Source of the DNA: Agelas oroides
Lineage: Eukaryota; Porifera; Demospongiae; Agelasida; Agelasidae
Reading direction: 5' to 3'
DNA length: 64,000 nt
Assembly: GCA_949130485.1 (NCBI GenBank)
Contig: OX422184.1
Location: 23,988,917 to 24,052,916, forward strand
Shown here: positions 3,001 through 45,191 of the stretch, piece by piece
Position numbering within the stretch: position 1 is the first letter of the stretch
How the letters are laid out: every line of letters begins with the position of its first letter
Translations under genes and position numbers: made by a program
Notes under the pieces: model-generated
What the model saw: the letters and a program-made list of their open reading frames with translations, nothing else
Told to the model about the DNA's origin: nothing
The model's database searches: none

Positions 3001-3904
3001 GTCTCAAACCGTTCACGGTCCGTAAAATTGGGGATTTTCCCCGTTTCCTGTCGGCATTGCCATCCAATAATCAGTTTATAATTAAGTTAGTTAAGATGTG
3101 GCCTGGCGGCACCCTTCATGTGGTGGTCGGAACTTTGAAAATAAGCTTAGATCGACTTAAAAAAAAAATAAATAAATAAAAAAAAGAAGGAGTTTAGTAG
3201 AGTGCTGTAGTGTCAGTAGCTGTGAGTAGTGCGTAATGTCTGCTTGTGAAAGCAAGCTTGCGTCTAGAAGAAGCAGAAAGGCCACAGTGGCCAAGACTGA
3301 GTAGGCCCAGGTCTCGCGGCCGTATGCCTAGCCTAGTTGGTGACCGTGGCCAGGTGCTTCAAGTGCTGGGATGGGCTTTAACTAGAATACGCAATTTATC
3401 GTTGGTGCTACAGTCTGACAGCCAAGGGAGCTGAACGGTGGCTGTGTGTGGAACAGAGCCGTGAGTTGTTTAGCGACATAAGGGAGAGAGGTGGGGCTAG
3501 TAATGCTTGCTTCCACTCGTGAATGAGCCCCTCCTGTAGACAAGCTGTGAATTTTTTAAAATGTGCATTCATTTTGGTGCAGTCAAAGTTGTCCATTCCA
3601 AGAGTAGTGACAAACATGAGTCTAGCCTGACTTTGAGAGTAGCTTTGAACAAAAGCTGGCATAGATTGTTTTGAGATACATTGGTGGTTGGGACGCTACC
3701 TACAGTGAGCGTGTAGATGCGTCCATCGAGTGGCAATTTGGGGTTCATGAATATATTAATGAGCTACTAAAACCCTTTTTAAAATTAGGCAAAGCAAGAT
3801 TGCCCTAAAGCAAACCCTAATCCTGGAACTAGGAGTAACCCTGGTCCTGACTGTAACCCAGGTTTATGTTTTCGTTAACCTCTGCCGAGTGACGACCATG
3901 CCAC

Positions 3905-3943
<39 letters not shown>

Positions 3944-6900
3944 AGGAGTTTAGTAGAGTGCTGTAGTGTCAGTAGCTGTGAGTAGTACGTAGTGCCTGCT
4001 TGTGAAAGCAAGCTTGTGTCTAGAAGCAGCAGAAAGGCCACGGTGGCCAAGACTGTACTCATTGGGCAGGCCCAGGTCTTGCGATCGTATGCCTAGCCTA
4101 GTTGGTGACCGTGGCCAGGTGCTTCGAGTGCTGGGCTGGGCTTTAACTAGAATACGCAATTTATCGTTGGTGCTACACTCTGGTACCCAAGGGAGCTGAA
4201 CGGTGGTTGTGTGTGGAACAGAGCAGTGAGTTGTTTAGCAACATAAGGGGGAGAGGTGGGGCTAGTAATGCTTGCTTGCACTCATGAATGAGCCCCTCCC
4301 GTAGACAAGCTGTGAATTTTTTGAAATGTGCATTCATTTTGGTGCAGTCAAAGTTGTCCATTCCAAGAGTAGTGACAAACATGAGTCTAGCCTGACTTTG
4401 AGAGTAGCTCTGAACAAAAGCTGGCACAGACTGATTTGAGATACATTGGTGGTTAGGACGCTACCTACAGTGAGCGTGTAGATGCGTCCATCGAGTGGCA
4501 ATTTTGGTTCATGAATATATTAATGAGCTACTAAAACCCTTTTTTAGAATTAGGCAAAGCAAGATTGCCCTAAACCAAACCCTAACCCTGAAACTAGGAG
4601 TAACCCTGGTACTGACCGTAACCCAAGTTTATGTTTTCGTTAACCTCCGCCGAGAGACTTCCACCGCCACCTTAACATGAAAAACATAGTACTACACTTT
4701 GCAGGTAAGTTAATTGTCAAAAGGAAACTCTATTCAAGACACCATAAAACGTATTGTATCTTTGTAGCCTATATGAAGCCATTCATTGCACAGATAAACC
4801 ACAAGTTTCAGTGGCGGATCTAGAAATGTAGAAAGGGGGGTTGAGTCACTGGCGCACGAAGCGCGGCGGAAAATTTTTGGGTTGCCACGCCCACTTCCGG
4901 TCACGTGAACGCATTAATAAAATAGCTGGAAGTCCAAGCTGAATATCTCGAAGCAACTCTAGGCCTAGTCAAACGTCTGGAGATCAGTAAGGAACTGATA
5001 CGTGAGTGTGTAACTGCCTGGTTGTTGTTGCTGCATGCCACTGCTGCATATCATATGATGGACTCATGCAGTTATGTATGCAATATACATTACTAGCCGC
5101 CAAAGGGGGGTGCATTTGCACCCCTAATCCGCCACTGAGTTTACAGTGGTTTTCAGAATGTTTCCATCACTAGGAAATGCAAAGCGTGGTGCGTTTGGTA
5201 GTTATTGCACGGCATAGCTTTATTTGGTGTAGCTACTGCACTGCTTTGAAGTCTGGATAGGAACGAGTGAATCATGTTTGTGGGCGGAGTCCAGTAAGAA
5301 CACGTGGTGCGACTGAACTAAAATGGCAGCGAGTTTGATGGATGGCCTGGCCTGACCAAACAAAACCATGTTCCCCCGGCCCTGGTTAGTGTACAGCTGG
5401 CTTTTCCTCGAATTGTGTTACATACCTTGTCAAACTCGGTGACCAATGAAGGTTGCACCAAGCGTAGCTAGATAAGTGCATGGCTGTTTTTCCTGGAACT
5501 GTGCACAGACTTTGCCGAACTATGAAGACAGTACAACTGTTTATGAGACTGGTAGGAAGGCCACGAAGGTTGGAGGTTAGCATTCTTACGCTAAATTGGA
5601 TTAGCGTAAATAAATTAAGACTCTAGCCTACGTAGCCGTCATGATAAATTCCTGAAATCGAATTTCTTACGTTAAATTGGATCATACGTAGTATTCGATT
5701 ATTACGGTAAGTTACGGTGGCCCGGCCAGAAGTACAAAAAACGCGTTTTTGAAATCCGGATTTGACGACGTTTTCGTTTAATTCGACGTTCGCAAAAATG
5801 AAGTTTACGGTATTATTTACGGTCGCCTGGTGCGGTCACTGATCACTCGGTGCGCTCACCAATCTGCCCAGTGCGGTGAGCGATCACTCATGCAGTGCGC
5901 TCACCGATCTGCCCTGTGCGGTCACCGATCTTAGCGTGCGTTCACTGTCAATTCCCACTTTGTCAATTCCCGCTTTGTCAATTCCCATTTGGTCAACTTC
6001 CCACTTCGTCAATTCCCACTTTGTCAATTCCCATTTGGTCAATGTTGACAAAGTGGGAATTGACAAAGTGGAAAGTTGACGAAGTGGGAATTGATAAAGT
6101 ACATTTTGAAAAAAATGATGCTGTCGATAGGAACTAGATGTTGGGATGCGGTTGACTGTGTGACGGATGTGCTGGCTATTATACACAGCATAATTATACT
6201 GTGAAGAGCTGATAGAACAACTGTGGGCTGGCCTTGAAAGTTCTATCTATATAGATGGTTTCAGCTTCGCAGAACTTCTCTAAATTGCCAACTGTTGCAA
6301 AGGGAACGAGGTTTTGATCATTTTGCCCAGTGTCCACTAGAAGGAAGTCAATCCTCATGGGCTGTTTGAGTCCACTCTCCCCTGAAGTCAATCTCTTCTC
6401 GTATTTGAGGCAATGTTGGAATCCTCTGAAGCCTGCTGCGATAGAGCGATGACTAAAGTTTTGGAATGAAGACGAATTGACAGCTGTTTCATCATACCCA
6501 GGGGCACCATACAGTTTTGTCATCTCCTGACAGTAGATTTGACTGATGCACTAAAACATTCACTGATCTATGACAGTGGTTAGATGTATAATCTTTCCAC
6601 TTCGTCAACTTCCCACTTCGTCAATTCCCACTTTGTCAATTCCCACTTTGTCAACATTGACCAAATGGGAATTGACAAAGTGGGAATTGACAAAGTGGGA
6701 ATTGACGAAGTGGTAATAAACCTACCCCGTGCAGTCACCGATCTTAGCGTGCGCTCACCGATCTGCCCTGTTCGGTCACCGATCTTAGTGTGCGCTCACC
6801 GATCTACCCTGGTACCGCATGAGTGATCGGTCACCGCACAGGGCAGATCGGTGGCCGCACAGAGTGATCGCTCACCGCACATGCAGGGCAGATCGGTGAG

Positions 6901-9900: not shown

Positions 9901-12900
9901 AGCCCATAGAGCTGTGGAATCAGGATTCTCAGGCTCAGCTATGGAGTATGGAGCCAGGTCTTTTTTGATGTAGTCTATATTGTCAGCTCATTTCCTGAGC
10001 ACAATTACTGGAGTTGTGGTATGGAAGTTTCACAAGCTCTTCTCTAGCTGTTGCTCATATTTGATCGAGTCACGCAGGCCTCTGTGATTCGAATTCTCAC
10101 AAGCTGATCGCTCTGTACACTGAGCACTCCCCGCTGGTGGCAGAGTCACGAAACACGCGCCGTCAATAATCAGTCTCGGTCTCACTAGTAGTGCCTCCCT
10201 TTCCTCGCCGTTTTCAAATCCCTGTTGCGTTGATTCCCACTGTTCAGCCTTTCTAGTCTTGTCTCTTGAGCAAGCAGTAATACATGAACCCAATATGCAA
10301 TGCGGAAATATTGCATCGCGCACAAATAGGGCAGAATGCATATACGGCATACGCACGTACCATATATATATATATATATATAGACAATTTTCCGTTTTCA
10401 CCACAAGTGTGGGGCTCGCTGCGCTCGCCCCAATAAATAGCTAAATAGCTTACAATAAAACATACACACGTTGCCATGCGTGCTTCTACTTGAGTCGTCT
10501 TAATTCGCTCTGGGCTGCACTCTCGACTGAGCTAAAGTGCACGCGGACATTCATTCCTCGTGAAATATTTATCTGCACTCGTTTAAAATTTACGGTATAT
10601 GGCCGCAACCAAACAAGCAAGCAAGCATACACACGCACGTTTGCAATGCAGTCACGCTAGTGTGGGGCTCGCTCAGGCTCGCCCTAATCACCGACTTGTA
10701 GCCAGGCAACATATTGCAAGGGTTTCACTTTCTGGCTGCCAGGCTTTGTCTCGTCCCCAGACCCCACCCTCTCACGAGGAGAAACGGTGTGGTGAACCAA
10801 GTCGAATTTCTTAGGCTAGCCCACGCTTTTGCGACAGTATAACCTAGCAACGTTCAAAATATTTTACAGCAAACCCGCTCAAAAAAGATACGGATAATCG
10901 AATGGAGATGAACAAATTTTACTGTTGTAAGGGAAATGCTACGTAATAATTACCGATCTCGCAATCTCATTGGTCATTACCACTTTTGGGGGAAAGCCCA
11001 AGGAATTCAACTTCGTTCACCAGATTTCTGGCTGGGAGGCGCGCGCGGGCTGAACACGAGACTAGCCAGGCCACTGGGGAGGACAGTAACATGAGTAATG
11101 AGAGGTGTATTAGTGACCTAGTAACACAACCCCATTGCATGATTTGTATGTATGGCTGCCAGGCCACTGGGGAAGGCAGTAATCAAATGAGTGATGTATT
11201 AGTGGCCTAGTATTACTCTGCCTTCACAGTGTAAATGCACTGAGCGGTGCCTTTGATTTGTATGGCTATATCAGGCTACAATTGTACTGACTGCTGACAA
11301 CCTACCTGCAAAGCACTGCATACTGATAGTGAGATGTGAAAAAATGTTTAGGGCAAGTGTTACTTAAGAAAAAAATGTGAATGGGCATCCTGTATTGTCC
11401 CGGCCAAGTGCCCAATTCTGTAGTTTTTCCTCCTAGTCTTGAAACTAGACCCTCGCATGCAAGGTCTGGTTCTGAGGCTATTTTCCTCCATGTAGCTAAC
11501 TGCCCACGGCCACTCAAAATTGCAGTGTCTTAATGTGACTAGATATGTTGCACAGTAGAAGGGTTGTTTTTAAGGTCACTAATGTAGCAGCAACCTTCTC
11601 ATGCATGTAATACAGATGCTGTGACATTTGGCAGGTTCACAAACACCAGTTTGTTAGTTATTTGTCATGCATGGCACAGCTTTCATCATCACTAAGCCAG
11701 CAGTGAATCTTCTATGTGTCTCATCACTTCACCTTTAACTTTTGCCTAGATTGACGGTTAGTACTATTGCTTTTTGAGTTCAGAAATGTGGGAGGTGGAT
11801 CAGCATTCAGCTCTCATTTTGGTAACAAAACCTGCAATTACTTATGTCCACTCTATAAGTATGGTGACAGTAATCATTCAGCGTTCTGTTTATTTATCCA
11901 TTCATGACCTTCAAGTGAGTGCATTGCACTATTCTCCATATTTAGTTACACAATTGTAGCTACAACTCTTCTGTCTCTCCTTATCTTATGACACACACAC
12001 ATGTAGCACTTGGATGTGATGCAGAGACCACAGAGTTTTTCTTCTGGAATTATACTCTTGCTGACACCACCCCGACCCTCCGTTGTCCCACCACCACTAC
12101 GATGATCAGCAGAACCTGCAGTTTGTCTGGTATGTGGGAGAGTGTTGACCCTTCTCTCTGTACCTCATTCACCTCCATCAACACTGTGAGTTTCATGCAC
12201 GAATCTGGTTCTTGAAACCATTGAGGTTGCAAAGGACAAGGTGTCATCTTCAAAAGTGTGAGGCTATATTCATCAGCCAATAACAGAGCATTTAAGCAAT
12301 TCATGACCAGTTCATGCGTGCAATAAGTAGTGTGAAACCAGGTATGCTATATACGTACAAATCATCAATGCTTTCACCATATAGTAGGATCATTGCAAGG
12401 CAGATGATTGTTTTTGTAACGTTGGAGCCATCAGTGAATATTTATTCAAATCCTTTGCAAGTTAGTCATAATTTGCCAAAACAGAGTCTTTTAAAAATGG
12501 TAACAATTATACATAACTGGTGTACAGGAATTGCACAACTATAGCTACATACACAGGGCCGTAGCAAGCACCTGGGAGCTGGTCCGGCCATGAATGTGGT
12601 TAAGCCACACCCCTAACCAATTAAATGACGTCACACCCTTTAGTTCCGCGCTAGCACGTAGCCTTGGAGTGAAGTCATTGCCACTGCCACTGACTAAACC
12701 AAGCAGATTGGAAGGAATGGGAGACTGTTTCTTTTGCCCAAATGTTGCTGGATGATGTGGATTTTTGGGCATATCATTCTGTGCCGTGGAGTCGGTGATA
12801 CTGCCAGTTGCTGTAGCCATGGCACGAGTTATTGCTCGCTGCGCAAGTGCAAAATTTTATTATCTGTGCATGCTCAGTTCCAAAAATGACTATAAAAACT

Positions 12901-15900
12901 GGTCCGGCCAAAACCAGACCAGCCGGACCACTTGCTATGGCCATGATACAGCTGTTTTCAAAAGCATCAAGCGTTAACCATTGTGATAATCTTAAGTGGC
13001 TGCCGTAGCATTATGAGTGATTTGATGTACCATATACAGGATAACATCACACTTGACAACTATAATCAAGTTCTCTCAAATGTAAGTGGGGCAGTGAGAG
13101 GTGCGGCTACTAATGAGCAGGAACAGACCACAAACAACCTCACTGTTGTTGCAGCTGCCTTTGAGAGGTCTGCTGCACAACTTGCCAACCAAAGGACTAG
13201 CATACCAAATACTGTAAGTTCATTGCTGTTCTGCTTGAGAAGGCACCACATAGCAAGTTTCTTTTGTGAGAGAAAAAAAGTTAATTCATTTTTTGGCAGT
13301 GTTAAAATTTGGCCCACACCCAGAATTGGTACTAAATAGTGACAATTGGGCCAACTAGTAGTCCATTCACTAGTTGTGGCCTCACTGAGTTACTTTTAGT
13401 GATTTTGTGCTACCGAAACCAGATGTCTAATATCAGTGAAGGTACCAGTTTCATATATGTACAAGCCAAGAACTACACTCACACTACACTGAGTGGTTTT
13501 GTTCCCATCCCCTGGTCCTACCTCCATCCCCCATCCATTCCCCCATGCTTCATGGATCAGACGGTGCAGAACCTCATCAATGCATTGGAGGGTCTTCAAC
13601 AATGGAATAAGAGTGTGCTACAGGCAAATGCCTCAAAGTGAGTCTGCAACTCTACATCAATATACTAGTGACAACTGGATAGATTGAGTATCTGACACCA
13701 TGCAGCCCACCTTCACTAAGGCTGATAAATCCTTTAGCGACCAACTTTTCTTCACTGTTATGTTTTCTTCCTCCTAACAGCATTGTGCGTTCTTATGAGA
13801 GAATTGTGAGTATGTTTTCCCAGAAGTTGGAAGGTGGAGATCACATTCCTTTTATGTCAGGAAATATTCTTGTTGTTACTGAACTGGTGAGTTTGGTTAA
13901 TTGCATGTACATGTATGATCTACACGCAGATTTTGCTGAGGGTTTTTTTTTTGGCCAATTTTGGCAATCATTGTCATTTTCAGTGCCATAAACATTTGTG
14001 TTTATACATTCTTCTGACCTACACTGGCTTTCTTAGGAAATATCTCATCTCCAGCTACAATTAAGTTAAGTCATAGACACTATATAGATAAAGACCAGCA
14101 TGTAGCTAAGATTGCTCTCAATAAAACAAACTTTCATACCGCTTTTGATGGCTTTGATTTGTAGTACTTCACATAAACTTGTGCCCATGTAAAGTGTACT
14201 GAGAACCAGATAAAGACAGTAAAAAAGGAGATGATCATCTATATTTATAGCTAAATAAGGTGGGTCTTCATACCAAACTATAGTGTTTATAAATGTTGCT
14301 ACATAATTTTTGCATGAACAATCAATGAACCACATCCCCCTAAAAAAAATAGGGTTGTACAACCTTGTTTTCATGTGTGGAATGTAGATTTTACGTACAC
14401 ATATACCACATTTCCTTTCACAACTGTAGCTGTCACTGGCTGAACTGAACAAAACTGGCAGAAGCTTCTCATCTGGTGGTCAGACAGTAAATACCAGCAT
14501 TAGTACCCTCAGTGAGAATGAAACTGCAGCTGCCTTTCTACCAGCCTCCCTTTTCCAGTCAATCACACACCTGAACAGTATTGGGAGCTTTTATGCTGTT
14601 TACAGCTCTGGGGCACTCTTTCCAATCACAAATGTAACAACAGTCGTGGGTAGCCCAGTCCTTGCAGCTACCGTAGGGTCTGGACTGAATTTTAGTAACC
14701 TGGCAGAACCTGTGAGGATCTTGCTGCGGTTGAATGATTCGGAGGTGAGTGACAAATGGTGTGAGAAATGTTTGTACACTTCAGTATGTGTGTAGGTTTT
14801 TCAACAGCTATGATGGAGGCTACACATGTAACACATCCAACCATTCATTCATATACTTTCATATGCTTATCTTATTTATATCTAAATACTTATCTTACAT
14901 AGAATGTCAACAGTAGACAACCTCGATGTGTCTCTTGGAGTTTTGGTGTACAAGGTATGCACTCAGTACTAGCTATAACGGAAACTAAATTCCTATGTAT
15001 CTTTTTCACTAAACTTTAGTGAAGTTAAAGGAGGTTAACAACAGAGGAGGCGTACCTAATACTGCGGATGCGTACTACCTAATACTGCGCAACCATTATT
15101 TGCACAAATCTCTTTCGGGTTCTTGCAGCTGTGGTGCAACTTGCCATCTCTTACCCACCCTTAGCCAGTCCCTCCCACTATTGTTAATTTTCTGTTTGTA
15201 AAGTTTCTGTTTCTCCACTGGAGTTTTCATGCTAACCTCAGTGTGATAGAAACAGAGGTGGAAGGTACTCTGGCAGAGTTCTTAAACCCACTAGGTACCA
15301 AATTTCAAAACCAGCCCTCCAAGCATTTGTAACTAACTCAGAGATCTGAGCTTACAAGATCTCTACAAAAAGCCATAAATGCCTCCATTTTTCCTCCATT
15401 AACATAATGGGTCTCTTCTCTGATACCCACGAAAGCCTATATTCTCTTCGAAGGTGTTAACTATACATAAAATCTGCATCTCACCTATAGTTAATCTGTG
15501 TTACACATTATGTTCTATAGCTCCTCCTCTTACTTTATATTACACAGAGTGGACAACAGAGGGTTGTGAGACTGATCTGCGAGATGTGAATGGAGGTGTT
15601 GTGACTTGCAGCTGCAACCACCTCACCAACTTTGCAGTTCTAAGTAAGTGCACATTCATTGGCCACACTTGGTAGTATTATTATTATTATTATTTTCTCT
15701 TTCACTCTTCCTTCTCTTATCACACACACACACACCATTCCACCTCACTGTTTCTGCAGCAAATGTAATCTGCAGAGCAGAGACCACAGGGGTCCTCTTC
15801 TGGCCAAACACTCTTGCTGGCACCAACTACGACCTCCAGTGTCCCACCACCACCACCATGATCAGCAGGACCTGCAATTCATCTGGTGTGTGGGAGAGTG

Positions 15901-18900
15901 TGGACCCCTCTCTCTGTATTTCATTCACCTCCATCAACACTGTGAGTTTCAGTGTGGGTTTCAGCATTGACCTTTGATGTGCTGTATCTTGTCCATCCAT
16001 GCTTTTACAATTGTAGGGTAACATCACACTTGATAACTATGGGGAGGTTCTTACAAGTTTAAGTGGGGCTGTGAGGGGTGCAGCCATTAATAAACGGATA
16101 CAGAACCCAAGCAACCTTGCCATGGTTGCAGCTGCCATTCAGAGATCTGCAGCACTCATCAATGAGATGGCTGTCATTACAAATGCAGTAAGTTCGCTTG
16201 CCTGAACAATCAGATTGCTCAATGGTTTAAGCTCCACCTACTATCCCCGCCCCCTCCTCTAAAACCTCTTCAGACAGTGAAGAACCTGGTCAACATATTG
16301 GAGGGCCTGCAACAGTGGAATGTGGATGTGCTACAAGCTAATGCCTCAAAGTTAGCAATAAACATTCGTAACACTTTTGTAACTTATCTCACACCAACAC
16401 CAGTTGGCCATCATTGATGAAGAGAAGGTTATCTGTTACCAACTTGAGCTTGGAAAATAACTTGCCAACATTTCGACTAAATGCATGCTCCAGCGTCATC
16501 AGGGCGAAAGTGAAGAGGTGTGTCAGTCTCGTCTTCAGTCTCCGTCTGGTCTCCCCGATGTAGACCTGGCCACAGCTGCAGGGGATACGATATACCACAT
16601 TGGATTGCTTCATACCAAGAGGTGTATCCTTGACCTTGGTCAACATTGAGTGGAGAGTCCGCCCGGAGAGTCCGTCCGGAGAGTCCGCCCGGACTTAAAG
16701 ACTACTGTGATGTTGAACTCTTCACTTTCGCCCTGATGACGACTGGAGCATTCAGTCGAAACGTCGGCAAGTTATTTTCCGACCTCAAGTTGGTAACAGA
16801 TGACCTTCTCTTCATTTATGCAGAAGCCAACTGAGGAGCCACTGAAAGTTTTTATCATTGATGAAAGTAGATCATCTCTTCTGTGTCATCTCTTCTTGAT
16901 CCTTGCAGTATTGTGCGTTCTTATGAAGCAATTGTGAGTACATTTGCCCAGCAGCTGGAGGAGGGAGAAACATTTTTTGTTATGAGAGAAAGCGTTCTCT
17001 TTGTTGCTGAGGCGGTGAGTTGGGTTGCATGTGGACAAGAAAATAATTTATAAATAAAACAGTCACGGTTTTCTCCATTCGAGGAATTATTTGGATCACC
17101 ACATCACTGCACTAAGAAACGTGTTAAAACCACACACAAACATATGATCGCATGCAGGTGTTGTTTTGGTCTGTATTTTTGCTGTTGAGTTAAAACAGCA
17201 CTGATTGCTCTGTGTTAAAACAAAACGGTGTGTTTAGCTTCATGTGTTCTTTCAGCATGGAGTGTAAGTGACACGTGTACACTGTGTGGTTTTGTGAAAC
17301 ATTCATCTGCATGCATCCATCTGCTGGCTATTATTTGGTTCTGAACCGCACAATAGCCAGCAGATGGATGCATATGAAATATTATGTTGGCTAGCAGACA
17401 AGTGTTTGTGCTAGCTCTCTGAAGCTAGATTGAATTGTGAGGGGTTGATGGATGATAATTATACTACCCACCTGTTCAATGAACCATGAAACTGCAATAA
17501 CCATGCACTTGTGGTCATTTCAACCAAGTAGTTTTAGCAGTGTTGTGTTGTTTTTCGGGACATTTGATTAACACGTGTGTGCTGGGTTGTTTTGAATTTG
17601 AAAGATTTGGATCAACGCATCTTAGCTGACTTTTGTCTACATTCAAAGTTAAGTACCATACAAAAACTATAGTTTTGTACATATGCAGAGACTGTGAACC
17701 TTGTAATCATCAAGAATTGAAGAATCAAGATTGCATGGATTTAATATATCTACAAAGATCCAGAAGTGTGAAAATTTGGTAACTGACTTGAGATAATTGC
17801 AAGGTCCATCCTCTTCTCAAGGCTGTAAGATACTACGTATGAAGATTCTGAGCCACATGCATTTAATCTGTTAAGTGCATGGTACATTTTATCTCTCAGC
17901 TGTATACTGACAACTGTAATCTTGGCCACATTTTCCTCCACCATGCACTGCAGCTGTCACGGGCTGAACTAGTTAGAGCTGGCAGAAGCTTCTCGTCTGG
18001 TGGTCAGACAGGAAATACCAGCTTTAGTACCCTCAATGAGAGTGAAACTGCAGCTGTCTTTCTACCACCGTCCCTTTTCCAGTCGATAGACACAAGTGTT
18101 GGAATCGTTTTTGCTGTTTATAACACCGGGGCACTCTTCCCAATCACAAATGCAACACAGCAAGATCAGGGGAAAAATGCATCAATTACAACAGTTGTGG
18201 GTAGTCCAGTCCTTGCAGTTACCATAGGGTCTGGACTGAACTTTAATAACCTGACAGAACCTGTGAGGATCTTGCTGCGGTTGAATGAATTGGAGGTGGG
18301 TGACCAGGATGTGTGTGTTTCTTTTTTTAGTTAGTTTGTGAGCTTTCATTAGCAAGAATGGACATTTATTTACTAATGAGTAATTGCACTCCCTGCACAG
18401 AATGTCACAGATCGACCACCTCGATGTGTCTCTTGGGATTTTAATCATGAAGGTACATGCGTAGTATTGTGAACAGCTGTTAACTGTTTAAGCTCATTGC
18501 TATATATGTAGCAACGTTTTAATTTGTTAGACATAGCAAATGGTAGTATTAATGATGCAAAACTAAGGTGGTATGAAAGCGAAATACTATTATAGTTGAT
18601 AATCAGGACAGTGACAAGCACTTCCAATGCATGTTATGTCTTGTTGCTTTATGCTGCAATATTCCTACTTTTTGTTGCTTATAGAGTGGACAACAGAGGG
18701 TTGTGTGAGAGTGGAAGTCAATGAAAGTGTTGTGACCTGTAACTGCAGCCATCTCACCAATTTTGCGATCCTTGTGGTTAGAATTTCTCGTATGTGCGTG
18801 CACAGCTATGCTGATTATAGTATGCTATCCTTGAGTAAATCAAATAGCCACAAGTCATATATTGTTACTACTGATCTTGAATGTGGGCTGCCCACTGTAT

Positions 18901-19629
18901 GTATAACCATAACATGTACCTCCTCTTGATCTGATATGCAGGACATCTGCTCAAGATTTCAGGACTGTTCTTCAAAGGAGCTAAAAATGATTACGTTTGT
19001 GCTGAGATGGGTTTCCATTGTTGGAGTGGCCCTTTCCCTCGCTGGAACTGTTGCTAGCATTTTCACCTTACTGTTTTTCAAGTGAGTCAGTTCAGAACTG
19101 AAGACAGTCACCCAAACTGTTTTCATGCTTTATGCGTGCATTGCTATACACTTCATATACTACCTACTATGAGCATTTCCATTTTACAGGAAATTCAGGA
19201 AACGAGTTCCCACCATTTTTCATGTCCAGCTCTGCATAGCTCTATTCTGTATGCTGATCATCTTTGTATGCGGTATTGACAAAACAGCTGTATACGGAGG
19301 CTGTGTAGCTGTGTCAGCCCTGATCCACTATTTCACACTGGTGGCTGTGATGTTCATGGGGGCAGAGGCCGTGCTCATGTTCCAGAAGCTGGTCATTGTG
19401 TTTGCTTCAACCTCCACCAAGTTCTTTGTTGCTGTGTCACTTATATGCTGGCGTAAGTGTACTGTGGAATAAAAGTAAGGCACTTACATTAAGTGTTGGG
19501 GTCAAAATGAGATAAGAGTGAGAGGTTTGGGGGTGTCAATGCTATGCACATCGTAGCTCCCATTTGTTAAGGCAAGGCTTGCATAATTGTGTAGCCTGTG
19601 CCTTCTCCTAATGCGTGGGGATCGTTGAG

Positions 19630-19664
<35 letters not shown>

Positions 19665-21165
19665 GATGGCCACTTGTTCTGGATTGTGCTACTTGTGGGG
19701 GTGGGGCTGAATAGTTCAGGGGATCCAGGTAGGGATTCTTCATGCTGGGAGCTAGTGCTACGGAAAGAGGTTAGACTATTGTTGGAGCTAAGTTGGGGGG
19801 GGGAGGTGGCTGGTTCTGGGGGGAGTTAGGGGTAGGGACATGGGCTGGGCTTGGGGTGGGTGTGGGGCTAAACAGTTGGGGGGAAGGGCTGTGGTTAATA
19901 TATTCTAAACTACTTGTATGGGGCATGCACAGCATTACTGAGAGGAACAGTCTGAATTGGCTGTTCAGTGTCTCCTGTACGGTATTGATACTGTCGTCAT
20001 GCGTCGGGGGAGGCTCTGACAGTATCTCCGGGGAGGTGATCAGTTCTTTGCTGTAAATCTCCCGGGGACCGAAGTACGTATCTCAGGGTGCGGGTTCGAG
20101 TAGCAGTTTCAAATGAAGACATCATCTCTGTGGCGCTGCAGTATATGAGGACAGTAGGAGGGGTTTGGCAAACGGTTGCTGTTGAGGCCCAACATTTTGC
20201 TCATCGGTGGTGAGCTTTTTTGAAATATTACTCGACGAAATGTGTATTTCTTCTTTCTTTAGTGATACCAATCATTCCTGTGGTGATCCCACTGGCTGTG
20301 GACCTCTCAGATGTGGTCAGTAGAGATCTTCTTGTACGTAGACCCACACCACAAAGAGGATTGTAAGTCACACTGGATGCATGCAACAGTATAATATTAT
20401 GGCAGACATTGCTGAATGACTTGTGTTGTCACTCTTTTCTCCAGCTGCTTCATAACTGACCCTGCAGTATTCTTTGGTGCCTTCCTGGGCCCCATCTTTG
20501 CCGTCCTAATCTTCAATGTTGTCATCTTTGTCTTGGTGATTGGAGTTCTCGTCAAACACACCCTAGACAAACTTGACCGTACTAATGAACAAATGAACAA
20601 GAAAACCGCCATCAGGTTGCTCATCAGTATTGCAGGTATCATGTTCCTCTTTGGTCTGACATGGCTCTTTGGTGCACTAACTGTCACTGGACTCAGCGAT
20701 GCTACAGCTTCTACTGTCTTCCAAGTTCTCTTTGTGATCTGCAATGCTTTTCAAGGTTTCTTCATCTTCCTTTTCTTCTGTGTGTTCAACAAGGATGCCC
20801 GAGGTTTATGGTTAGAGTTGCTCTCATGTGGTCACTATCAATCCAAACCATTGCACTCTTCACAGGCCAAGTATGCCAACATTGGTACCCCAGGGAAGAT
20901 TAAAACTGCAGGTTCTGGCCTTCTCTCAAACCTTGTTTCAGCTACTTTCAGCAAAGGTGGGTACACCTCAAGCATCAATGACCTCAGCAAGGATGAGGGA
21001 TACACTGACATACCCCTCACAAGTGCAGCTGAACAAAAGGAGGAGCCTTTGATGGAGACAGAGATTCACGAAGCTAATGTTGGCACAGAGCAGAGAGAAG
21101 TGAAGGGAAAGCAGGATAGAGCTGAAGGCACACGTGAAGTGCTTCTCGACAAAGAAGGACAATAA
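1..21165 (+). CDS. Adhesion GPCR with Ig domain and two tandem HRM-GAIN-GPS modules (5' partial)
   Basis: This is a surface receptor of the adhesion GPCR family, expected to autoproteolyse at its GPS and signal through a 7TM. Exons read by eye: 1-88, 2281-2586, 12007-12185, 13040-13213, 13561-13637, 13781-13886, 14430-14744, 14903-14954, 15548-15643, 15760-15941, 16017-16187, 16274-16350, 16909-17014, 17954-18295, 18401-18452, 18685-18776, 18942-19081, 19190-19452, 20263-20362, 20445-21165. All junctions are GT-AG and keep one frame; the sum is 3639 nt including TAA. Residue layout: leader end 1-29, Ig about 30-131, HRM1 132-191, GAIN1/GPS1 192-464, HRM2 465-525, GAIN2/GPS2 526-805, 7TM about 806-1094, tail to 1212. 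The start codon lies before base 1. The linkage of the first two exons across long introns is less certain than the rest. A split into two genes at 15643/15760 is possible but not favoured, because the phases match. Confidence 0.85.
997..1125. mobile_element. Short inverted-repeat element (MITE-like)
   Basis: The left end ATAGGCGTAGAAACT followed by a G tract (1013-1036) is mirrored on the right by a C tract followed by ATTCCTACACCTAT. The element is about 129 bp and non-coding. The class is not determined and no clear target-site duplication was seen. Confidence 0.5.
1621..1770 (+). repeat. 20-bp tandem repeat, about 7 copies
   Basis: The unit AAACTATATCAAGCTGAACT repeats from 1621 at exactly 20-bp steps. 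The first copy (AGGCTGAGCT) and the last (AGACTGTACC) are diverged, which is usual for array edges. It lies in intron 1. Confidence 0.9.
2281..2586 (+). CDS. Ig-like domain exon of the adhesion GPCR
   Basis: A single phase 1-1 exon encodes an I-set-like Ig domain. Cys in GLFVCVAYGYP, the core Trp in SLTWNKGG, and DDAAQYNCSASN carrying the second Cys form the usual C-W-DxAxYxC pattern. The acceptor is after CCTACAG (2280) and the donor is GTACGT at 2587. Symmetric phase 1-1 is typical of shuffled extracellular modules. Its role would be ligand or cell contact at the outer end of the receptor. Confidence 0.85.
2638..4671. mobile_element. TTAA-flanked composite element (piggyBac-like boundaries)
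   Basis: The ends read TTAA-GGTGGCAG (TTAA at 2634-2637) and CCGCCACC-TTAA (4672-4675). Inside are two tandem units of about 261 bp (2638-2897, 2898-3160), an A-rich tract, then two tandem units of about 720-740 bp (3187-3908 and 3942-4671) separated by a poly-A run (3908-3941). No transposase is seen, so it is non-autonomous. TTAA target sites are typical of piggyBac elements, but the terminal bases alone do not prove the superfamily. Confidence 0.6.
4809..5137. mobile_element. CAGTGGCGG-type MITE, copy 1
   Basis: Terminal inverted repeats CAGTGGCGGATCTAGA and AATCCGCCACTG are flanked by a perfect 5-bp duplication AGTTT (4804-4808 and 5138-5142). It is 329 bp and non-coding. The same termini recur at 28104-29170 and 51679-52180. 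Confidence 0.75.
5713..7078. mobile_element. MULE-like DNA transposon with nested palindromic satellites
   Basis: Long terminal inverted repeats of over 120 bp begin TACGGTGGCCC and end GGCCACCGTA. GTAAGT directly flanks both sides (5707-5712, 7079-7084). Inside each arm are arrays of TGCGGTCACCGATCT-type units, then arrays of TCAATTCCCACTTTG units that are themselves palindromic (about 5945-6085 and 6595-6715). The centre carries a fragment of a transposase-like reading frame on the minus strand. Confidence 0.75.
6194..6523 (-). pseudogene. MULE-type transposase fragment
   Basis: The fragment is 109 residues. Its end, FCEAETIYIDRTFKASPQLF, resembles the segment around the first catalytic Asp of Mutator-like transposases, usually written DGTF. 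Here Arg replaces Gly after the Asp. The rest of the catalytic domain is absent, so it cannot be an active enzyme. It sits in the core of the element at 5713-7078, which supports a MULE origin. Similarity is recalled from family motifs, not searched. Confidence 0.5.
7211..8352. mobile_element. Non-autonomous long element with 9-bp target duplication
   Basis: The left end GGGTATAGTCTAAGTTCACC is mirrored by GGTGAACTTAGTCTATCCC at the right. The flanks ATTTCTACC (7202-7210) and ATTTCTATC (8353-8361) match in 8 of 9 bases, which points to a 9-bp duplication as in Mutator-like elements. The interior holds telomere-like repeats (7386-7432) and two stretches related to the repeat at 25670-27030 (7500-7560 and 8140-8200). 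No intact reading frame was found. Confidence 0.65.
7386..7432 (+). repeat. Telomere-like (TTAGGG) short tract
   Basis: GGGTTAG, TTAGGGCTAGGG and TTAGGGTTAGGG units run in a degenerate tract of about 47 bp inside the element at 7211-8352. Its position inside a transposon argues against a chromosome end. Confidence 0.7.
8736..9149. mobile_element. TAGTCTCGT MITE, copy 1
   Basis: Ends TAGTCTCGTTCCCAGACCG and GTCTGGGCACGAGACTA are flanked by a perfect 9-bp duplication GGGCGAGCC (8727-8735, 9150-9158). It is non-coding. Nine-base duplications suggest Mutator-like mobilisation. Confidence 0.85.
10747..11064. mobile_element. TAGTCTCGT MITE, copy 2
   Basis: Ends TGTCTCGTCCCCAGACC and ACACGAGACTA. 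The flanks GCCAGGCTT and GCCAGGCCA agree in 7 of 9 bases. The interior matches the copy at 31579-31901 closely, including the subterminal GGAGAAACGG and GGTGAACCAAGTCGAATTTC. Confidence 0.75.
12007..15643 (+). CDS. First HRM-GAIN-GPS module of the adhesion GPCR
   Basis: There are seven exons. HRM1 (12007-12185, phase 1-0) has four Cys, FFFW and RTCSLSGMW, as in hormone-receptor domains. GAIN exons are 13040-13213 (0-0), 13561-13637 (0-2), 13781-13886 (2-0), 14430-14744 (0-0) and 14903-14954 (0-1). GPS exon 15548-15643 (1-1) has PRCVSW before it, then EWTTEGC, CSCNHLTNFAVL. The HL/T autoproteolysis site is intact. Instead of running into TM1, the Stachel-like TNFAVL is spliced to a second HRM exon. 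Confidence 0.85.
12554..12945. mobile_element. GGCCGTAGCAAG-type MITE in a GAIN intron
   Basis: The left end CAGGGCCGTAGCAAG is mirrored by CTTGCTATGGCCATG. The inner repeat CTGGTCCGGCCA occurs at both ends. ATACA flanks both sides, which suggests a 5-bp duplication. It is non-coding and lies in the intron between HRM1 and the first GAIN exon. Confidence 0.65.
13887..14429 (+). other. Intron within GAIN1
   Basis: AT-rich intron sequence between GAIN1 exons. No gene or recognisable element was seen. Confidence 0.6.
15760..18776 (+). CDS. Second HRM-GAIN-GPS module of the adhesion GPCR
   Basis: The exons match module 1 in number, order and phase: HRM2 15760-15941 (1-0), GAIN 16017-16187 (0-0), 16274-16350 (0-2), 16909-17014 (2-0), 17954-18295 (0-0), 18401-18452 (0-1), GPS 18685-18776 (1-0). 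Pairs of 77, 106 and 52 nt exons have identical lengths in the two modules. The HRM has TTGVLFWPNTLAG and RTCNSSGVW. The GPS has EWTTEGC and CNCSHLTNFAILV with an intact HL/T site. Only the last phase differs, as needed to join TM1. Residues are strongly similar to module 1, for example GRSFSSGGQT and VRILLRLN in both. Confidence 0.9.
16389..16850 (-). mobile_element. Penelope-like element fragment with GIY-YIG segment and inverted repeat
   Basis: On the minus strand 16646-16389 encodes VVYRIPCSCGQVYIGETRRR, then LKTRL. This is a typical Penelope-like GIY-YIG endonuclease start with its CxC pair. The sequence at about 16404-16520 is repeated in inverted orientation at about 16715-16830, so the remnant can fold back. 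Between them is a short GAGAGTCCGCCCG tandem (16651-16697). Reverse transcriptase is absent, so this is a decayed 3' part. It sits in the intron between GAIN2 exons b and c. Confidence 0.75.
16733..16775 (+). ncRNA. Hammerhead ribozyme-like motif in the Penelope-like remnant
   Basis: CTGATGA (16733-16739), a hairpin GACTG-GAGCATT-CAGTC and GAAAC (16758-16762) follow in hammerhead core order. GTCGG further on pairs with CCGAC at 16779-16783. One extra C sits between CTGATGA and stem II, and one base pair next to the predicted cleavage triplet is mismatched, so activity is doubtful. Penelope-like elements are known to carry hammerheads. Weaker relatives lie at 16471-16502 (minus) and near 40993. 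Confidence 0.4.
17015..17953 (+). other. Intron within GAIN2 with a short hairpin
   Basis: No coding sequence was seen. The stretch 17312-17375 holds an inverted repeat of about 24 bp, GCATCCATCTGCTGGCTATT against AATAGCCAGCAGATGGATGC. It is the likely remnant of a small element. Confidence 0.6.
18942..21165 (+). CDS. 7TM region and cytoplasmic tail of the adhesion GPCR
   Basis: The exons are 18942-19081 (TM1), 19190-19452 (TM2 to TM4), 20263-20362 (extracellular loop 2) and 20445-21165 (TM5 to tail). Family marks are GLTWLFG in TM6 and FQGFFIFLFFC in TM7, both typical of adhesion receptors, and Cys in YGGCVAVSALIHYF at the TM3 start. A Cys in GLCFITD may form the loop disulphide. The tail after ARGLW is rich in Ser/Thr and acidic residues and ends LLDKEGQ before TAA at 21163-21165. 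The frame is open through all four exons. Confidence 0.92.
19453..20262 (+). other. Intron in the 7TM region with long G tract
   Basis: It contains an uninterrupted G run (19633-19663) and GGGGGTGGGG-rich sequence to about 19885. The rest shows nothing recognisable. Such runs are error-prone in sequencing, so the length is uncertain. Confidence 0.7.
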
Positions 21166-22286
21166 GCATCATGTTGAAAGTGTTGAAGTGGACTATTTAG
21201 ATAACACAGTATTGGTAGTAATGTTTAGTTGCAATCAAACTTTCAGTGATCAAGGTTCACAATGTTTCTAGCAGTTCTATACAAACAAAATGTGCAATAC
21301 TTGACTTTTTGTAATTCTCATTTAATGTAAACTCATTTTGCTGCATGCATGCACATCCATGATTATGAAGTTTGCTGATTCTATTTTGGCTGATGCTGCT
21401 TCACATTCATTAGACAGTAGACTGGACTTGACGGATATCTATCAAGGTCACAGGGTATATGCTTGCCACACTCTGAGGTATGTTTAGTTGCCTTGATGGC
21501 ATCACTAAATTGCAAGTCTTGCATTTACTTTGCTTTCGTATCTTGGCATTATGCCTGCTAACGTCTTACTAAAAAATTTCATTTCTGAAGTTGCTGTACA
21601 GTAGTGTATCTGCTTACACTCAGTGTTTCATATCCTACAGTGACAACATTTCTAGCAGTTATATACACAAATGAAAATTGCAATACTTTACTTTTGTAAT
21701 TCTCGTTTAATGTAAACTCATTTTGCTGCATGCATCCACGAAGCATTACCATATGCTGATTGAACAATTATATTGGCTCATGCTGCTTCACGTGCCTTTA
21801 AATTCATCAGACAGTGGATTTGACGACCTAGAGTGACGAATTTCTGAACCTACCAACTATCGAAGTCACAGAATGTTTGCCACTCTTAAGCATGTTTAGT
21901 TGCTTTACCATTGTGATCTTGATGGCATCACTAAATTGCAAGTCTTGCATTTACTTTGCTTTCGTATCTTGGCATTATGCCTGGTAACTTAATTCTTGCT
22001 AATAAATTTAATTCTGAAGTTGCTGTACAGTAGTGTATCTGCTTACCCTCAGTGTTTCATAGCCTACAGTGACAACTTATCACTATTCCAAAGAGTTTCC
22101 CATTCCAATAGCATACACTTATATGCAACATTTTCAACATTATGAAGTGCACTTTTTGTAAGTATAAACTATTCAAACAAAAGCAAGCACTTTTTAGAGA
22201 TCATTGTTGTGTGTCAGAAGTCACAGATACGTACAATGTCATGTGCAAAAAGTAGATATTTACATGACATACAGCTCATCAGCATT
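21166..22286. other. Convergent intergenic region with a tandem duplication of about 400 bp
   Basis: It lies between the receptor stop and the aminotransferase stop and probably holds both 3' UTRs. The segments 21250-21640 and 21650-22070 are diverged tandem copies. Both contain GTAAACTCATTTTGCTGCAT and AAATTGCAAGTCTTGCATTT. No gene was seen. Confidence 0.7.
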
Positions 22287-23687
22287 CTAAAAAGAGTTTC
22301 CCAAACCAATGGCATACTTGTGCACATTTTCAACCGTCTGTGCTGGGATGCAGCCTGTGTACAGTTCTTGGGCAACTTCACCAGCTACGCGTATAATGGT
22401 AGCTACTTCTTTTTCACCGATGATATAGGGTGGTTCAATCCGAACAACCTGCCTCTTGGAACCAAAATAGCCGAAATAAACTCCCTTTTCTACGCATCTG
22501 GTTGCAAAGATCACAGCTGCCAACTCATCGGATGCAATGTTTATTTCCATGCCGAGCATTAATCCTCGTCCACGTACTTCAGTTATGATTGTCGGATACT
22601 GTACTTGTAACTGCTGGAGTTTCATTTTCAGTAGCTCACCGACTTTTGCTGCATGTTCAATTAGTTGGCGTTGTTCAATCTCAGTGATGACCAAACTGGC
22701 AGCCAGGGAGCACTCAGAATGCCCCGTGAAGGTAAAAACATGTTGCGCTGGTTGTAAAGCATCAATGACATCCTCTCGTCCAACAAGAGCTGAAATTGGT
22801 GCATAACCTCCTGCCAGTCCCTTGCCCATAACCAAGATATCAGGGACTATCCCTTCGTATTCACAAGCCCACCATTTGCCAGTACGACCCATGCCACTCT
22901 GAATTTCATCAGCAATGAGCAGTGCATTGTATCGTTTCAGCAATGACATCAGGCTTTGGAAAAAGCCTTCAACAGGAACCTGGATTCCTGCATCTCCCTG
23001 GATTATCTCAGCAACCACACCACCCACCTTACCACCAGCGAGGTGTTCTTCAATCTTGCTCAGGGTTTGTTTGGCTAGATCAGCCGTTGAGGGGAAATCC
23101 ACAGAGATAAAATTAGACGAGGGAGGGTAGATTCCCTCCTTTAAGGTCTCAAATCCGGAAGCTGACTGTGACAGGCCAGTGGACCCATGATAAGCATTCT
23201 TGAAGTAAATTATGCCCATCTTCTTGGTGTACTTCCGCACAGACTCAAGGGCACCTCCAATAGAATCAGAGCCACTGAGACCAAGCATAACGCGTTTCGG
23301 GTGCGTCCCGGGAGTGATGCGGATCAAATGTTCAGCTAGCTCTACAGCAGGGACATTCGGAGAATAGGGAAAGCATGTATTCTGCATGGAACGCGCTATC
23401 TCATAGAGCCGCTTGGGAATGTCCTCGTTACCATACCCGATAATGTTGACTGATGCCCCAGCCAGACAGTCTAAGTAGACATTGCCGTCTAAATCCATCA
23501 TGTAGGGCCCCGAGCCCTGATTTAAGGCGATACCATACAACCCGAGGTAATTGGATCGGCCGATGGCGCTGCCCAATCGTTTGAGGAGAGCTTGGGAATT
23601 TGGGCCGGGTGGGAGCACCGTGACTGTTACATCGTGATCAACTTTCGCCAGGTCTTGTTTCACAGACTTATCTGTTGCTCGATTCAT
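22287..23687 (-). CDS. Class III PLP-dependent aminotransferase, intronless
   Basis: An uninterrupted 466-residue frame encodes an enzyme that moves an amino group from an omega-amine or amino acid to a keto acid using pyridoxal phosphate. The fold-type I class III marks are in order: SGSDSIGGALE (138-147) for phosphate binding, YHG (166-168) for cofactor stacking, DEIQSGMGRTGK (260-271) with Asp260, the Schiff-base Lys in MGKGLAGGY (Lys289), and TGH (321-323). The length fits the family (about 420-470). The N-terminal PGPNSQALLKR and DCLAGASV resemble bacterial GABA/diaminobutyrate-type enzymes; the exact substrate cannot be read. No mitochondrial targeting peptide is evident. It lacks introns while all neighbours are split, so bacterial transfer or retroposition is possible. 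The start is the first Met, at 23687. Confidence 0.92.
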   Translation of the reverse strand: MNRATDKSVKQDLAKVDHDVTVTVLPPGPNSQALLKRLGSAIGRSNYLGLYGIALNQGSGPYMMDLDGNVYLDCLAGASVNIIGYGNEDIPKRLYEIARSMQNTCFPYSPNVPAVELAEHLIRITPGTHPKRVMLGLSGSDSIGGALESVRKYTKKMGIIYFKNAYHGSTGLSQSASGFETLKEGIYPPSSNFISVDFPSTADLAKQTLSKIEEHLAGGKVGGVVAEIIQGDAGIQVPVEGFFQSLMSLLKRYNALLIADEIQSGMGRTGKWWACEYEGIVPDILVMGKGLAGGYAPISALVGREDVIDALQPAQHVFTFTGHSECSLAASLVITEIEQRQLIEHAAKVGELLKMKLQQLQVQYPTIITEVRGRGLMLGMEINIASDELAAVIFATRCVEKGVYFGYFGSKRQVVRIEPPYIIGEKEVATIIRVAGEVAQELYTGCIPAQTVENVHKYAIGLGNSF

Positions 23688-25256
23688 GGCTGAAACCGTG
23701 ATCAGGCTGGCGTCTCGGTTGAAAGTTCAAAGGTTCAAAGGTTCAAATTTATGAATGTCGCCCGCAATGAGTTTTCAGTACGTGCTCCTTGATCAGAGTA
23801 CTGATCAACCGTTTCAAAATTGACGTCACTTGTACACTTACTGTTCCACAGACCAAGGCCAAGAGACAGTTATCCCACAACCACCACCATCCTCCATTTC
23901 TTGCTACTGTACTGCAGTAGCTACGTGGAGCCTTAACTCCCTTTGCCTGGAGCTTATGAGCGACACAACAAATGTCAAAGTAGCATACATTGGTTTATCC
24001 CATGAATTTGGCGCCGTGTTACAAAACACGCCTTGTAGAGAAGTGATATGCTTGCACCTCCTTCATTAAGAAGCGAGCAGATGACTATTGTAGTCATAGT
24101 AGTCACCTCAAACTGCATGGGCACAGCCAGTATGGAAAAGCAGGAAATGGAAACTGGAAATGGAAAATGGAAATGAAAATTAGAAATGGAAATCCAGTCA
24201 AGCAAGCCACTGTAAGTATAGCTACTACACAACTTACTTGTAGCCATCAAGCACTCTATATAGTGTCCTTTGGAGTCATATAGGGCTCAGAGGTCACATG
24301 CGTGTCAAACATATCTACATATCTAGCCAATAGCTAGCTAGCTACTAGTATTGATAAAAGGATACTCTTCTGAGGTCTGACAGGGTGGAAATAGGTTGAA
24401 TGTGCTAGAGGACAGTATAGGTTGAATGTGCTAGAGGACAGTATGGAAGCCATTTGGTGTAATAGTGTCTTCTATGTGCATATAACGAAACCACGTTTCC
24501 ATATGCTGACTTCTAGCTTAGTAGCTACTATAGCTACCTATAACGATGTTGCTGCAGTGTGAATTTGGCCTTATACTGCAGACTCAAGTGTCATATTTCA
24601 TACCTTGTAGCTACCAGTAGTTTATGTATCCAAGAACTAAAGTCTGTGGATTTATACAACTGGCTTAGCTCACTGTAGCTGCTATTGGCATACAGTGCTG
24701 ATGCATGTGAACATTGTTTTCGAGGACGAAAACTACTAAGTTAGCTACATTTGTGAGTTATGAAGCCAGTTCATGGCCAGTTTAATAAAAATGACCTTAG
24801 TATGCATTGCAAATTAGTATGGCGGATATCTTGTGGTTCTTCTACCCTTCTGTCTGTCTACCCACCATATACTCTTGCAGAGAGAGCCTGAGCATCAAGT
24901 TTTCGACCTAAAGTGGACCATGTTTGGGAATTGGTGCCATTGGACCTTTGAATGACTCATAAATGACCAGCAACACCAAAAATATTGTTCATCAACTTTC
25001 AGTGGCAGGGGAAAAGAGACAGCCAAGAAGAGTACAACTGCCGTTTGATGAAATTTTGTCATTGATACACCGGAAGTGGGCACGTGGAGCCGTCGACTTA
25101 TCCGGTTCCAGAAGTTATAAAAGTCAGCAACACTGCTTGAAGTACAGCAAGGAACTAAACTGCGAATACCGTCGGCAACTCGCACGGGGAACACTGCAGA
25201 TGTACGGCGGAGACACAGCATAGCCTTGCGAACGACTGCGTGCTGAGGCGAGAAAA
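23688..25256. other. Divergent intergenic region between the aminotransferase and gene B
   Basis: No gene was seen. It should hold the aminotransferase promoter (just above 23687) and the gene B promoter (just below 25257). A fragment of the AGGAAATGGAAACTGG-type repeat lies at 24128-24200. CACCGGAAG at about 25068-25076 matches the ETS-like site before other leader exons. The 24-bp direct repeat around 24390-24440 (GGTTGAATGTGCTAGAGGAC) is duplicated once. Confidence 0.6.
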
Positions 25257-44417: not shown

Positions 44418-45191
44418 ATGCATGTGGTAAAAATGACATACATTTTTGGCAAAGACAATTGTTTTATTTTGAGTATCCAAGTTCTGGTTCTCCTGGTGGG
44501 TATTTGCTTCGCCTCTCCCCTTCCACAATTGTCAGGAGAACGTCCGCGACTCCCAAGAAGCAGCCCTGGCTGGTAATCTATAATAAATGTCTCCACTCCA
44601 TTGATCTGATAGTTGAGTATTAGTTGCATACGATGCTCAAAATATTGTATCTGCAAATAGCCAACTGTGCACTGTTCTCTTTGTCTATACAGTAGTCTGA
44701 CACTATATGATGGAGATATTGGGTCGTCCCCATCATTAGAGCTGACCACAAGTGCTTCTTCTTTAGATGATAATGGCTGGAATAACAGGGCTTCATCAGC
44801 CGTAGTGTCTGGTGGATGTCAGTGGATTCTCTATGGCGCTGCTGGTTTTAGTGGCAGTACATCTGTTATCGGTCCAGGAAGCTATCCAGTATTTAGCACT
44901 TCCACTTTTGGAATACCAGAAAATTCACTTTCTGCTGTACGCTGTCTACCTGTAGAGGGCACACAAGCACTTGTTCTTTTTGAGGATGGTCATTATATTG
45001 ACCAAATGCAAGTTATCTACTCCTCTAGACCAGATCTTGCGCTCACTAACTTTGACAATGCAGTTTCATCCTTTATCATCACTGGTGGTACGTGGGAGTT
45101 GTACTCTGGAACAAATTACACAGGCTCTATGGTCACACATGCAGAAGATGTGGTATACCACACAATATACCCAGATGTAGGGATCCAATAA
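44418..45191 (+). pseudogene. Gene C: 5'-truncated duplicate (leader plus partial crystallin)
   Basis: Leader exon 44418-44572 (MHVVKMTYIFGKDNCFILSI) and crystallin exon from 44693 are intact and join in frame. The crystallin sequence stops matching its paralogs near 45140, after TGSMVTH. From there the DNA resembles the promoter region upstream of leader exons, and a stop comes at 45191. The last Greek key is incomplete and no CCP or TM exon follows before gene D. It could still make a secreted fragment, or its promoter could splice into the gene D crystallin exon. Confidence 0.85.

Follow-up and report, generated by a model that had tools for sequence, protein, structure and literature searches.

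A sponge adhesion receptor gene with a putative tandem duplication of its HRM-GAIN-GPS ectodomain in front of one 7TM domain

Adhesion G protein-coupled receptors (GPCRs) usually contain a single, membrane-proximal GAIN domain, and a locus of the sponge Agelas oroides raises the question whether one receptor gene can carry two. The DNA analyzed here (64,000 nucleotides (nt) of contig OX422184.1, called the window below) is animal-type DNA with introns and contains two HRM-GAIN-GPS modules upstream of one seven-transmembrane (7TM) region, which could belong to one gene or to two products, and in which one, both or none of the GPS motifs might be cleaved. Eighteen exons with GT-AG borders on the plus strand (12007-21165) join into a single frame of 1,080 residues plus stop, or of 1,182 residues when a candidate immunoglobulin (Ig) exon at 2281-2586 is added. 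The first 14 of them make up two equally ordered sets of seven, an HRM-GAIN-GPS block (12007-15643, copy 1) and its homologue (15760-18776, copy 2), and both are followed by one secretin/adhesion-type 7TM region (18942-21165). These sequence data give good support to an HRM-GAIN-GPS ectodomain that is doubled in tandem ahead of a single 7TM and within a single frame. The features are as follows:

2281-2586, plus strand: candidate Ig (I-set) exon, 306 nt, phase 1-1 (Pfam I-set E 1.9e-13)
12007-12185, plus strand: copy 1 exon 1, HRM1 with four Cys (Pfam HRM 25.6 bits alone)
13040-13213, plus strand: copy 1 exon 2, N-terminal (subdomain A) part of GAIN1 (ADGRG6 alignment from residue 81)
13561-13637, plus strand: copy 1 exon 3, 77 nt
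13781-13886, plus strand: copy 1 exon 4, 106 nt
14430-14744, plus strand: copy 1 exon 5, C-terminal (subdomain B) part of GAIN1, with low synonymous divergence from copy 2
14903-14954, plus strand: copy 1 exon 6, 52 nt, start of GPS1 with CVSW and Ser at S10.49
15548-15643, plus strand: copy 1 exon 7, remaining GPS1 with HL/TNFAVL, phase-1 end
15644-15759, plus strand: GPS1-HRM2 intron, 116 nt, its 3' part resembling the upstream flank of HRM1
15760-15941, plus strand: copy 2 exon 1, HRM2 with four Cys, phase-1 start (HRM 33.6 bits)
16017-16187, plus strand: copy 2 exon 2, N-terminal (subdomain A) part of GAIN2
16274-16350, plus strand: copy 2 exon 3, 77 nt, weak donor
16909-17014, plus strand: copy 2 exon 4, 106 nt
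17954-18295, plus strand: copy 2 exon 5, C-terminal (subdomain B) part of GAIN2, with 11 codons that have no counterpart in copy 1
18401-18452, plus strand: copy 2 exon 6, 52 nt, start of GPS2 with CVSW and Ser at S10.49
18685-18776, plus strand: copy 2 exon 7, remaining GPS2 with HL/TNFAILV, phase-0 end
18942-19081, plus strand: 7TM exon 1, region of the first transmembrane segment (TM1; 7tm_2 E 3.3e-30)
19190-19452, plus strand: 7TM exon 2
20263-20362, plus strand: 7TM exon 3
20445-21165, plus strand: 7TM exon 4, cytoplasmic tail and stop

Both sets of seven exons are entered in the phases 1, 0, 0, 2, 0, 0 and 1. Exon pairs 3, 4 and 6 are equal in length (77, 106 and 52 nt), and the copies of exons 1, 2 and 5 differ by whole codons. 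The ends of the last exons differ in phase, GPS1 ending in phase 1 and GPS2 in phase 0, and the length difference of 4 nt in exon 7 corresponds to two codons minus a donor shift of 2 nt. An earlier note made from the sequence alone had proposed the head-to-tail pair with a single 7TM, the three equal-length exon pairs, and a phase-1 end of GPS1 that fits the phase-1 HRM2 exon while GPS2 joins TM1 in phase 0; all of this was recovered from the single frame, the exon boundaries and the exon phases. Its further statement that exon number, order and phases match holds throughout the two sets, except at the end of the last exon.

Comparison of the joined product with Pfam yielded HRM twice, GPS twice and 7tm_2 once. 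The 7TM region matched PF00002 (E 3.3e-30, 105.6 bits) and has adhesion GPCRs as its best PDB matches, and GPS2 is located directly before TM1 (PF01825 at residues 632-672, 7tm_2 from residue 694). HRM1 alone stays under the cut-off (25.6 versus 26.2 bits) and HRM2 reaches 33.6 bits. The Pfam GAIN model scores below its cut-off in copy 2 (21.2 versus 26.5) and is unlisted for copy 1. In PDB sequence comparisons, copy 1 aligns with ADGRL3 (E 5.2e-10) and ADGRG6 (E 7.2e-8) in their GAIN regions, and copy 2 together with the 7TM aligns with ADGRG6 over residues 167-641, GAIN region included (E 8.3e-48). By sequence the product has the 7TM, the GPS before TM1 and the GAIN around the GPS that characterize class B2 receptors; it departs from the usual layout with a single membrane-proximal GAIN, which is not strictly defining, by a second HRM-GAIN-GPS upstream in the same frame. 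Hydrophobic stretches before the 7TM were only marginal at a threshold of 1.4 (342-360 with 1.43 and 690-708 with 1.47) and both lie inside the modules, so that the modules are not separated by a second membrane domain.

Since HRM1 is marginal and GAIN1 is not detected by Pfam, module 1 might be suspected to be a decaying duplicate, or an assembly artefact resulting from falsely joined haplotypes. Neither agrees with the comparison of the copies. The modules are 68% identical as proteins and share all eight Cys columns (8/8), module 1 has no stop in 332 codons, and its phases and splice sites are intact. An unselected copy would have stayed free of stops with a probability of 0.057, 0.014 or 0.006 at a branch divergence of 0.10, 0.15 or 0.20, respectively. 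All seven exon pairs align with 72.5-87.7% identity, whereas none of the six intron pairs is alignable as a whole; the scores of five do not leave the range covered by 30 shuffles per pair, and the sixth is one point above its shuffles, in a match of about 32 nt at the 3' end. Such similar exons with unrelated introns are unlike haplotypes. Short similar flanks beside the exons are visible in the self-comparison of the window.

The NG86 method, applied to 327 aligned codons, gave 0.208 nonsynonymous (dN) and 0.413 synonymous (dS) differences per site. The bootstrap median of dN/dS is 0.50 (95% 0.37-0.68, 0/300 replicates at or above 1), which speaks against decay and points to constraint on the module pair; being taken from one pair, the ratio cannot apportion this constraint between the copies, nor show it for copy 1 alone. 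This limit, the main one of the comparison, counts against the maintenance of module 1, as does the finding that the differences at the three codon positions (65, 62 and 83) are not significantly uneven (chi2 3.7). Taken together, we regard decay or misassembly of module 1 as very improbable. In exon 5 (14430-14744 versus 17954-18295) dS is only 0.21; the difference of 0.328 from the other exons was reached by 3 of 500 permutations and possibly reflects gene conversion between the copies. A third module was not found in the window: a tblastn search with the 1,080-residue product returned, outside 12000-21200, just four matches with E 4.0 to 9.0.

The question whether the modules belong to one gene was addressed at the junction between GPS1 and HRM2, which are separated by a gap of 116 nt. 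The GPS1 donor TAA|GTAAGT scores 8.0, compared to a 99th percentile of 7.8 for the 4,025 GT sites of the window (donor weights are approximate and taken from general knowledge), and only one other GT between 15590 and 15760 scores above 2, with 3.7. Relative to the counterpart of the GPS2 donor, this donor is shifted upstream by 2 nt, which changes the phase from 0 to 1, as HRM2 requires; the shift may have repaired the frame after the duplication. The frame would be lost if GPS1 were spliced directly to TM1. It is preserved when module 1 is skipped, leaving 849 residues with the Ig exon, but broken when module 2 is skipped. The receptor thus needs module 2, whereas module 1 forms a block of phase 1-1.

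The same properties allow for two products from one locus, a secreted or truncated (Ig-)HRM-GAIN protein and an ordinary receptor whose upstream leader is spliced to HRM2. Because module 1 is phase 1-1, a leader or the Ig exon could be spliced directly to HRM2, and retention of the GPS1 intron would read FAVLSKCTFIGHTW, the stop being the 11th codon after FAVL. However, the strong GPS1 donor is in phase with HRM2, and the 116-nt gap contains neither an ATG nor a canonical poly-A hexamer: no AATAAA or ATTAAA was present within 15643-16089, and the next canonical hexamer, at 16089, lies inside copy 2. The first ATGs past the gap are one at 15763 that is out of frame and one at 15858 that is in frame but within HRM2. 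HRM2 has no visible leader of its own. Two separate products consequently appear improbable to us, and a single receptor gene with both modules is the best reading of the sequence.

The origin of the junction was addressed by comparing the flanks of both modules. The 3' part of the intron before HRM2 and the upstream flank of HRM1 are alike over about 36 nt (score 21, reached in 0 of 200 shuffles), and the 16 other introns, used as controls and extended into the exon where shorter than 116 nt, gave best scores of 15 and 12. Such likeness would be expected after a tandem duplication whose breakpoint lay upstream of HRM. Homology between the GPS1-HRM2 intron and the GPS2-TM1 intron was not seen (score 9, reached by 96 of 200 shuffles).

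The 5' end of the gene is less clear. The Ig exon joins HRM1 or HRM2 in frame and lies 9.4 kb upstream of HRM1; its phase and orientation suggest that it is part of the receptor gene. The I-set match was obtained with a query that included eight residues of read-through beyond the exon. Residues 1-131 of the model in the earlier note are reproduced by combining 29 residues from the left edge of the window with the 102-residue Ig exon. The Ig domain of this model is real, and its membership in the receptor is suggested only by phase and orientation, but the 29 residues are probably spurious. The left-edge stretch is similar to four places (44493-44564, 45532-45603, 51542-51628 and 62377-62448) beside crystallin-like frames, and because of this recurrence it was not accepted as the N-terminus; it probably does not code for the receptor.

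Several observations weigh against a single complete gene. The first 12 kb yielded no convincing signal-peptide exon: the sole leader candidate that passed the filter is a weak exon with its end at 1184 and three nested ATGs, and the gene may begin beyond the edge of the window. The donors of copy 2 exon 3 (3.7) and of GPS2 (4.0) are weak. The 36-nt stretch is of low complexity, rich in CA and pyrimidines, so that the flank likeness is only moderate evidence for the duplication. Pattern scans for relatives gave 7 and 64 viral and 166 bacterial or archaeal matches, none of them confirmed, and are uninformative on animals.

The surroundings of the gene contain further repeats and frames. Two adjacent tandem duplications are located in the presumed intron between the Ig exon and HRM1 (2634-3160, about 265 nt, 94%; 3159-4684, about 770 nt, 92%). 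Directly 3' of the receptor stop codon, about 400 nt are tandemly duplicated with 76% identity (21259-22076), and just beyond, on the minus strand, an intronless stop-to-stop frame of 479 codons (22287-23726) encodes a class-III aminotransferase (Aminotran_3, E 1.4e-83), possibly a retrocopy or an acquired gene. Repeated gene-like frames cluster at 39216-63178, the longest duplicated block having 91% identity, and at least one of these frames has beta/gamma-crystallin domains (45512-46321, Pfam Crystall E 1e-20). A retroelement integrase fragment (rve, E 2.9e-13) lies at 58802-59374 on the minus strand, and at 59510-60076 an 83-nt unit is repeated perfectly in tandem.

If both modules are part of one protein, would both GPS motifs be cut? 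The earlier note had proposed two cleavable sites that both keep the HL/T motif. HLT is indeed present in both (HL/TNFAVL in copy 1, HL/TNFAILV in copy 2), and both copies read TEGC, with Gly-Cys before the second disulfide, and contain four GPS cysteines each. To this extent the proposal stands; efficient cutting is less supported, since both copies have Ser instead of an aromatic residue at S10.49 (CVSW) and a long distance separates GPS1 from the membrane. Cleavage reportedly takes more than an HxS/T motif, and Phe at S10.49 is reported to orient the His (PMC13062082). Phe occupies this position in 5/5 receptors with displayed alignments (ADGRF1, ADGRG6, ADGRL3, ADGRG1 and ADGRG2), five alignments being displayed per search. 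The Phe of the aligned CxFW of L3 lies 33 residues before the GPS His, and F803 of L1 is likewise 33 residues ahead of the GPS His 836 (PMC13062082); the distances from Ser to His in the present copies are 31 and 29, because their loops are shorter. In ADGRB2, which has Ser at S10.49, initial cleavage amounts to about 2-4% and the half-life is close to 100 days (PMC13062082).

The position of the two motifs relative to the membrane is also different. GPS2 adjoins TM1, whereas 340 residues, comprising HRM2 and GAIN2, lie between the GPS1 and GPS2 cuts. A spacer between the anchored EMR2 ectodomain and the membrane reduced cleavage from 45% to 10%, and other receptors behaved alike (PMC12488864). 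If the cleavage rules of other receptors can be applied to this distant one, Ser at S10.49 and the membrane distance of GPS1 would predict that GPS2 is cleaved slowly or in part and GPS1 to a smaller degree. Published data also speak against this expectation. The L1 variants F803A and F803L have markedly lowered cleavage but partly retain it, ADGRB2 with Phe and three further changes still reaches only about 2-4% initial cleavage, exchanges of the flaps around the GPS strongly affect cleavage, and cleavage is possible in ectodomain constructs that lack a membrane anchor (PMC13062082). The poor cleavage of the ADGRB2 Phe variant and the influence of the flaps indicate that S10.49 alone is not decisive.

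These data bear on a receptor in which both GPS motifs self-cleave, resulting in an N-terminal piece, a middle piece of 340 residues (TNFAVL-HRM2-GAIN2) and the 7TM piece. GAIN1 and GAIN2 would then be serial release points, and pulling may shed one piece while the 7TM agonist is still hidden. The conserved motif residues and the Stachel-like HL/TNFAVL are compatible with it, purified HormR-GAIN ectodomains are able to cleave in published assays in which Phe is not the sole determinant (PMC13062082), and the modules contain 13 and 12 N-glycosylation sequons, N-glycans being known to support EMR2 cleavage (PMC12488864). Both copies, however, share the Ser of the poorly cleaving ADGRB2, and a whole HRM-GAIN spaces GPS1 from the membrane, as did the spacer that lowered EMR2 cleavage (PMC12488864). 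Efficient cleavage at both sites is less supported than the tandem layout, and we consider such a three-piece receptor unlikely. In fly CIRL, activity reportedly does not need autoproteolysis (PMC5548486).

The reading we prefer, with a probability of roughly 60%, is one adhesion GPCR gene with an in-frame tandem module, in which GAIN2 does the switching, both GPS sites cut slowly or partially, and the main form is uncleaved or singly cleaved. The HRM-GAIN-GPS exon block would have been duplicated in tandem within one adhesion GPCR gene, with the phase-1 donor at the end of GPS1 keeping the duplicate in frame. The predicted order of the product is (Ig?)-HRM1-GAIN1-GPS1-HRM2-GAIN2-GPS2-7TM. GAIN2 beside TM1 would carry the operative tethered agonist TNFAILV and provide conventional 7TM switching, cleaved or not, and HRM1-GAIN1 would be an extra ectodomain block that acts as a longer stalk or as an added binding or mechanical element. 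Module 1 may be used as a phase 1-1 cassette that can be removed by splicing without loss of frame, which is not expected for module 2. Both GPS sites are probably slow or partial cutters, GPS1 the least, so that a three-piece form would not be the main one. We see as possible, but doubtful, that the modules form two GPS latches in series: GAIN1 would cut in a fraction of the molecules and shed an N-terminal piece under load, GAIN2 would be the switch, and exclusion of module 1 would select between one and two latches.

If expressed as one protein, the receptor would be a natural test of self-cleavage by a GAIN distant from the membrane, of whether a Stachel-like strand has a role when it is not passed on to a 7TM, and of the sharing of tension across two serially arranged GAIN folds. 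The modules, being similar and part of the same chain, would serve as mutual internal controls, and with Ser at S10.49 in both copies the proposed aromatic requirement could be tested in a distant receptor. The literature searched contained no report of a tandem GAIN/GPS receptor; it was a body of papers that did not extend to subscription papers or to UniProt/InterPro architectures. One adhesion GPCR paper with the phrase "two GPS" concerns two mutants (PMC5548486). A survey of GAIN domains modelled them trimmed back from the GPS record (PMC11697300), a design that might miss a second, upstream GAIN.

Among known receptors, the best PDB relatives are ADGRG6, ADGRG2, ADGRL3 and ADGRF1. The first three can be aligned to the copy 2 GPS and the 7TM over more than 400 residues, and ADGRF1 has a short first GPS loop similar to that of the present copies. 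All four differ from them by Phe at S10.49 in the displayed alignments, where the present copies have Ser. ADGRG6, ADGRG2, ADGRL3 and ADGRF1 have one GAIN each. ADGRA2 and ADGRA3 have the architecture LRR-Ig-HormR-GAIN-7TM with a single module, and they resemble the present gene in an Ig before HormR-GAIN; leucine-rich repeats (LRR) were not noticed in the present gene, for which no search aimed at LRR was made. ADGRB2 (BAI2), which has HLS and is almost not cleaved, is similar in its Ser at S10.49 and its intact HxS/T, but has Asn before the conserved Cys, where the present gene has Gly, and the present gene further differs by its Thr nucleophile and its tandem structure (PMC13062082). Class B2 receptors with HRM-GAIN-GPS-7TM are known from animals, choanoflagellates and filastereans, including HRM-bearing ones of Amphimedon (PMC4302439; PMC12716839). 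Of the 40 adhesion receptors described in this sponge, 28 have a GPS and eight or more an HRM; a doubled module is not mentioned in the excerpted account (PMC4302439). Ig domains are included in the N-terminal repertoire of sponge adhesion receptors (PMC4302439; PMC12716839), and the present gene has a candidate Ig exon. The HRM receptors of class B2 share with the present gene the HRM directly before the GAIN, the HLT of the GPS and the secretin/adhesion 7TM; whereas they have one HRM-GAIN/GPS as described, the present gene contains the whole module twice (PMC4302439; PMC12716839).

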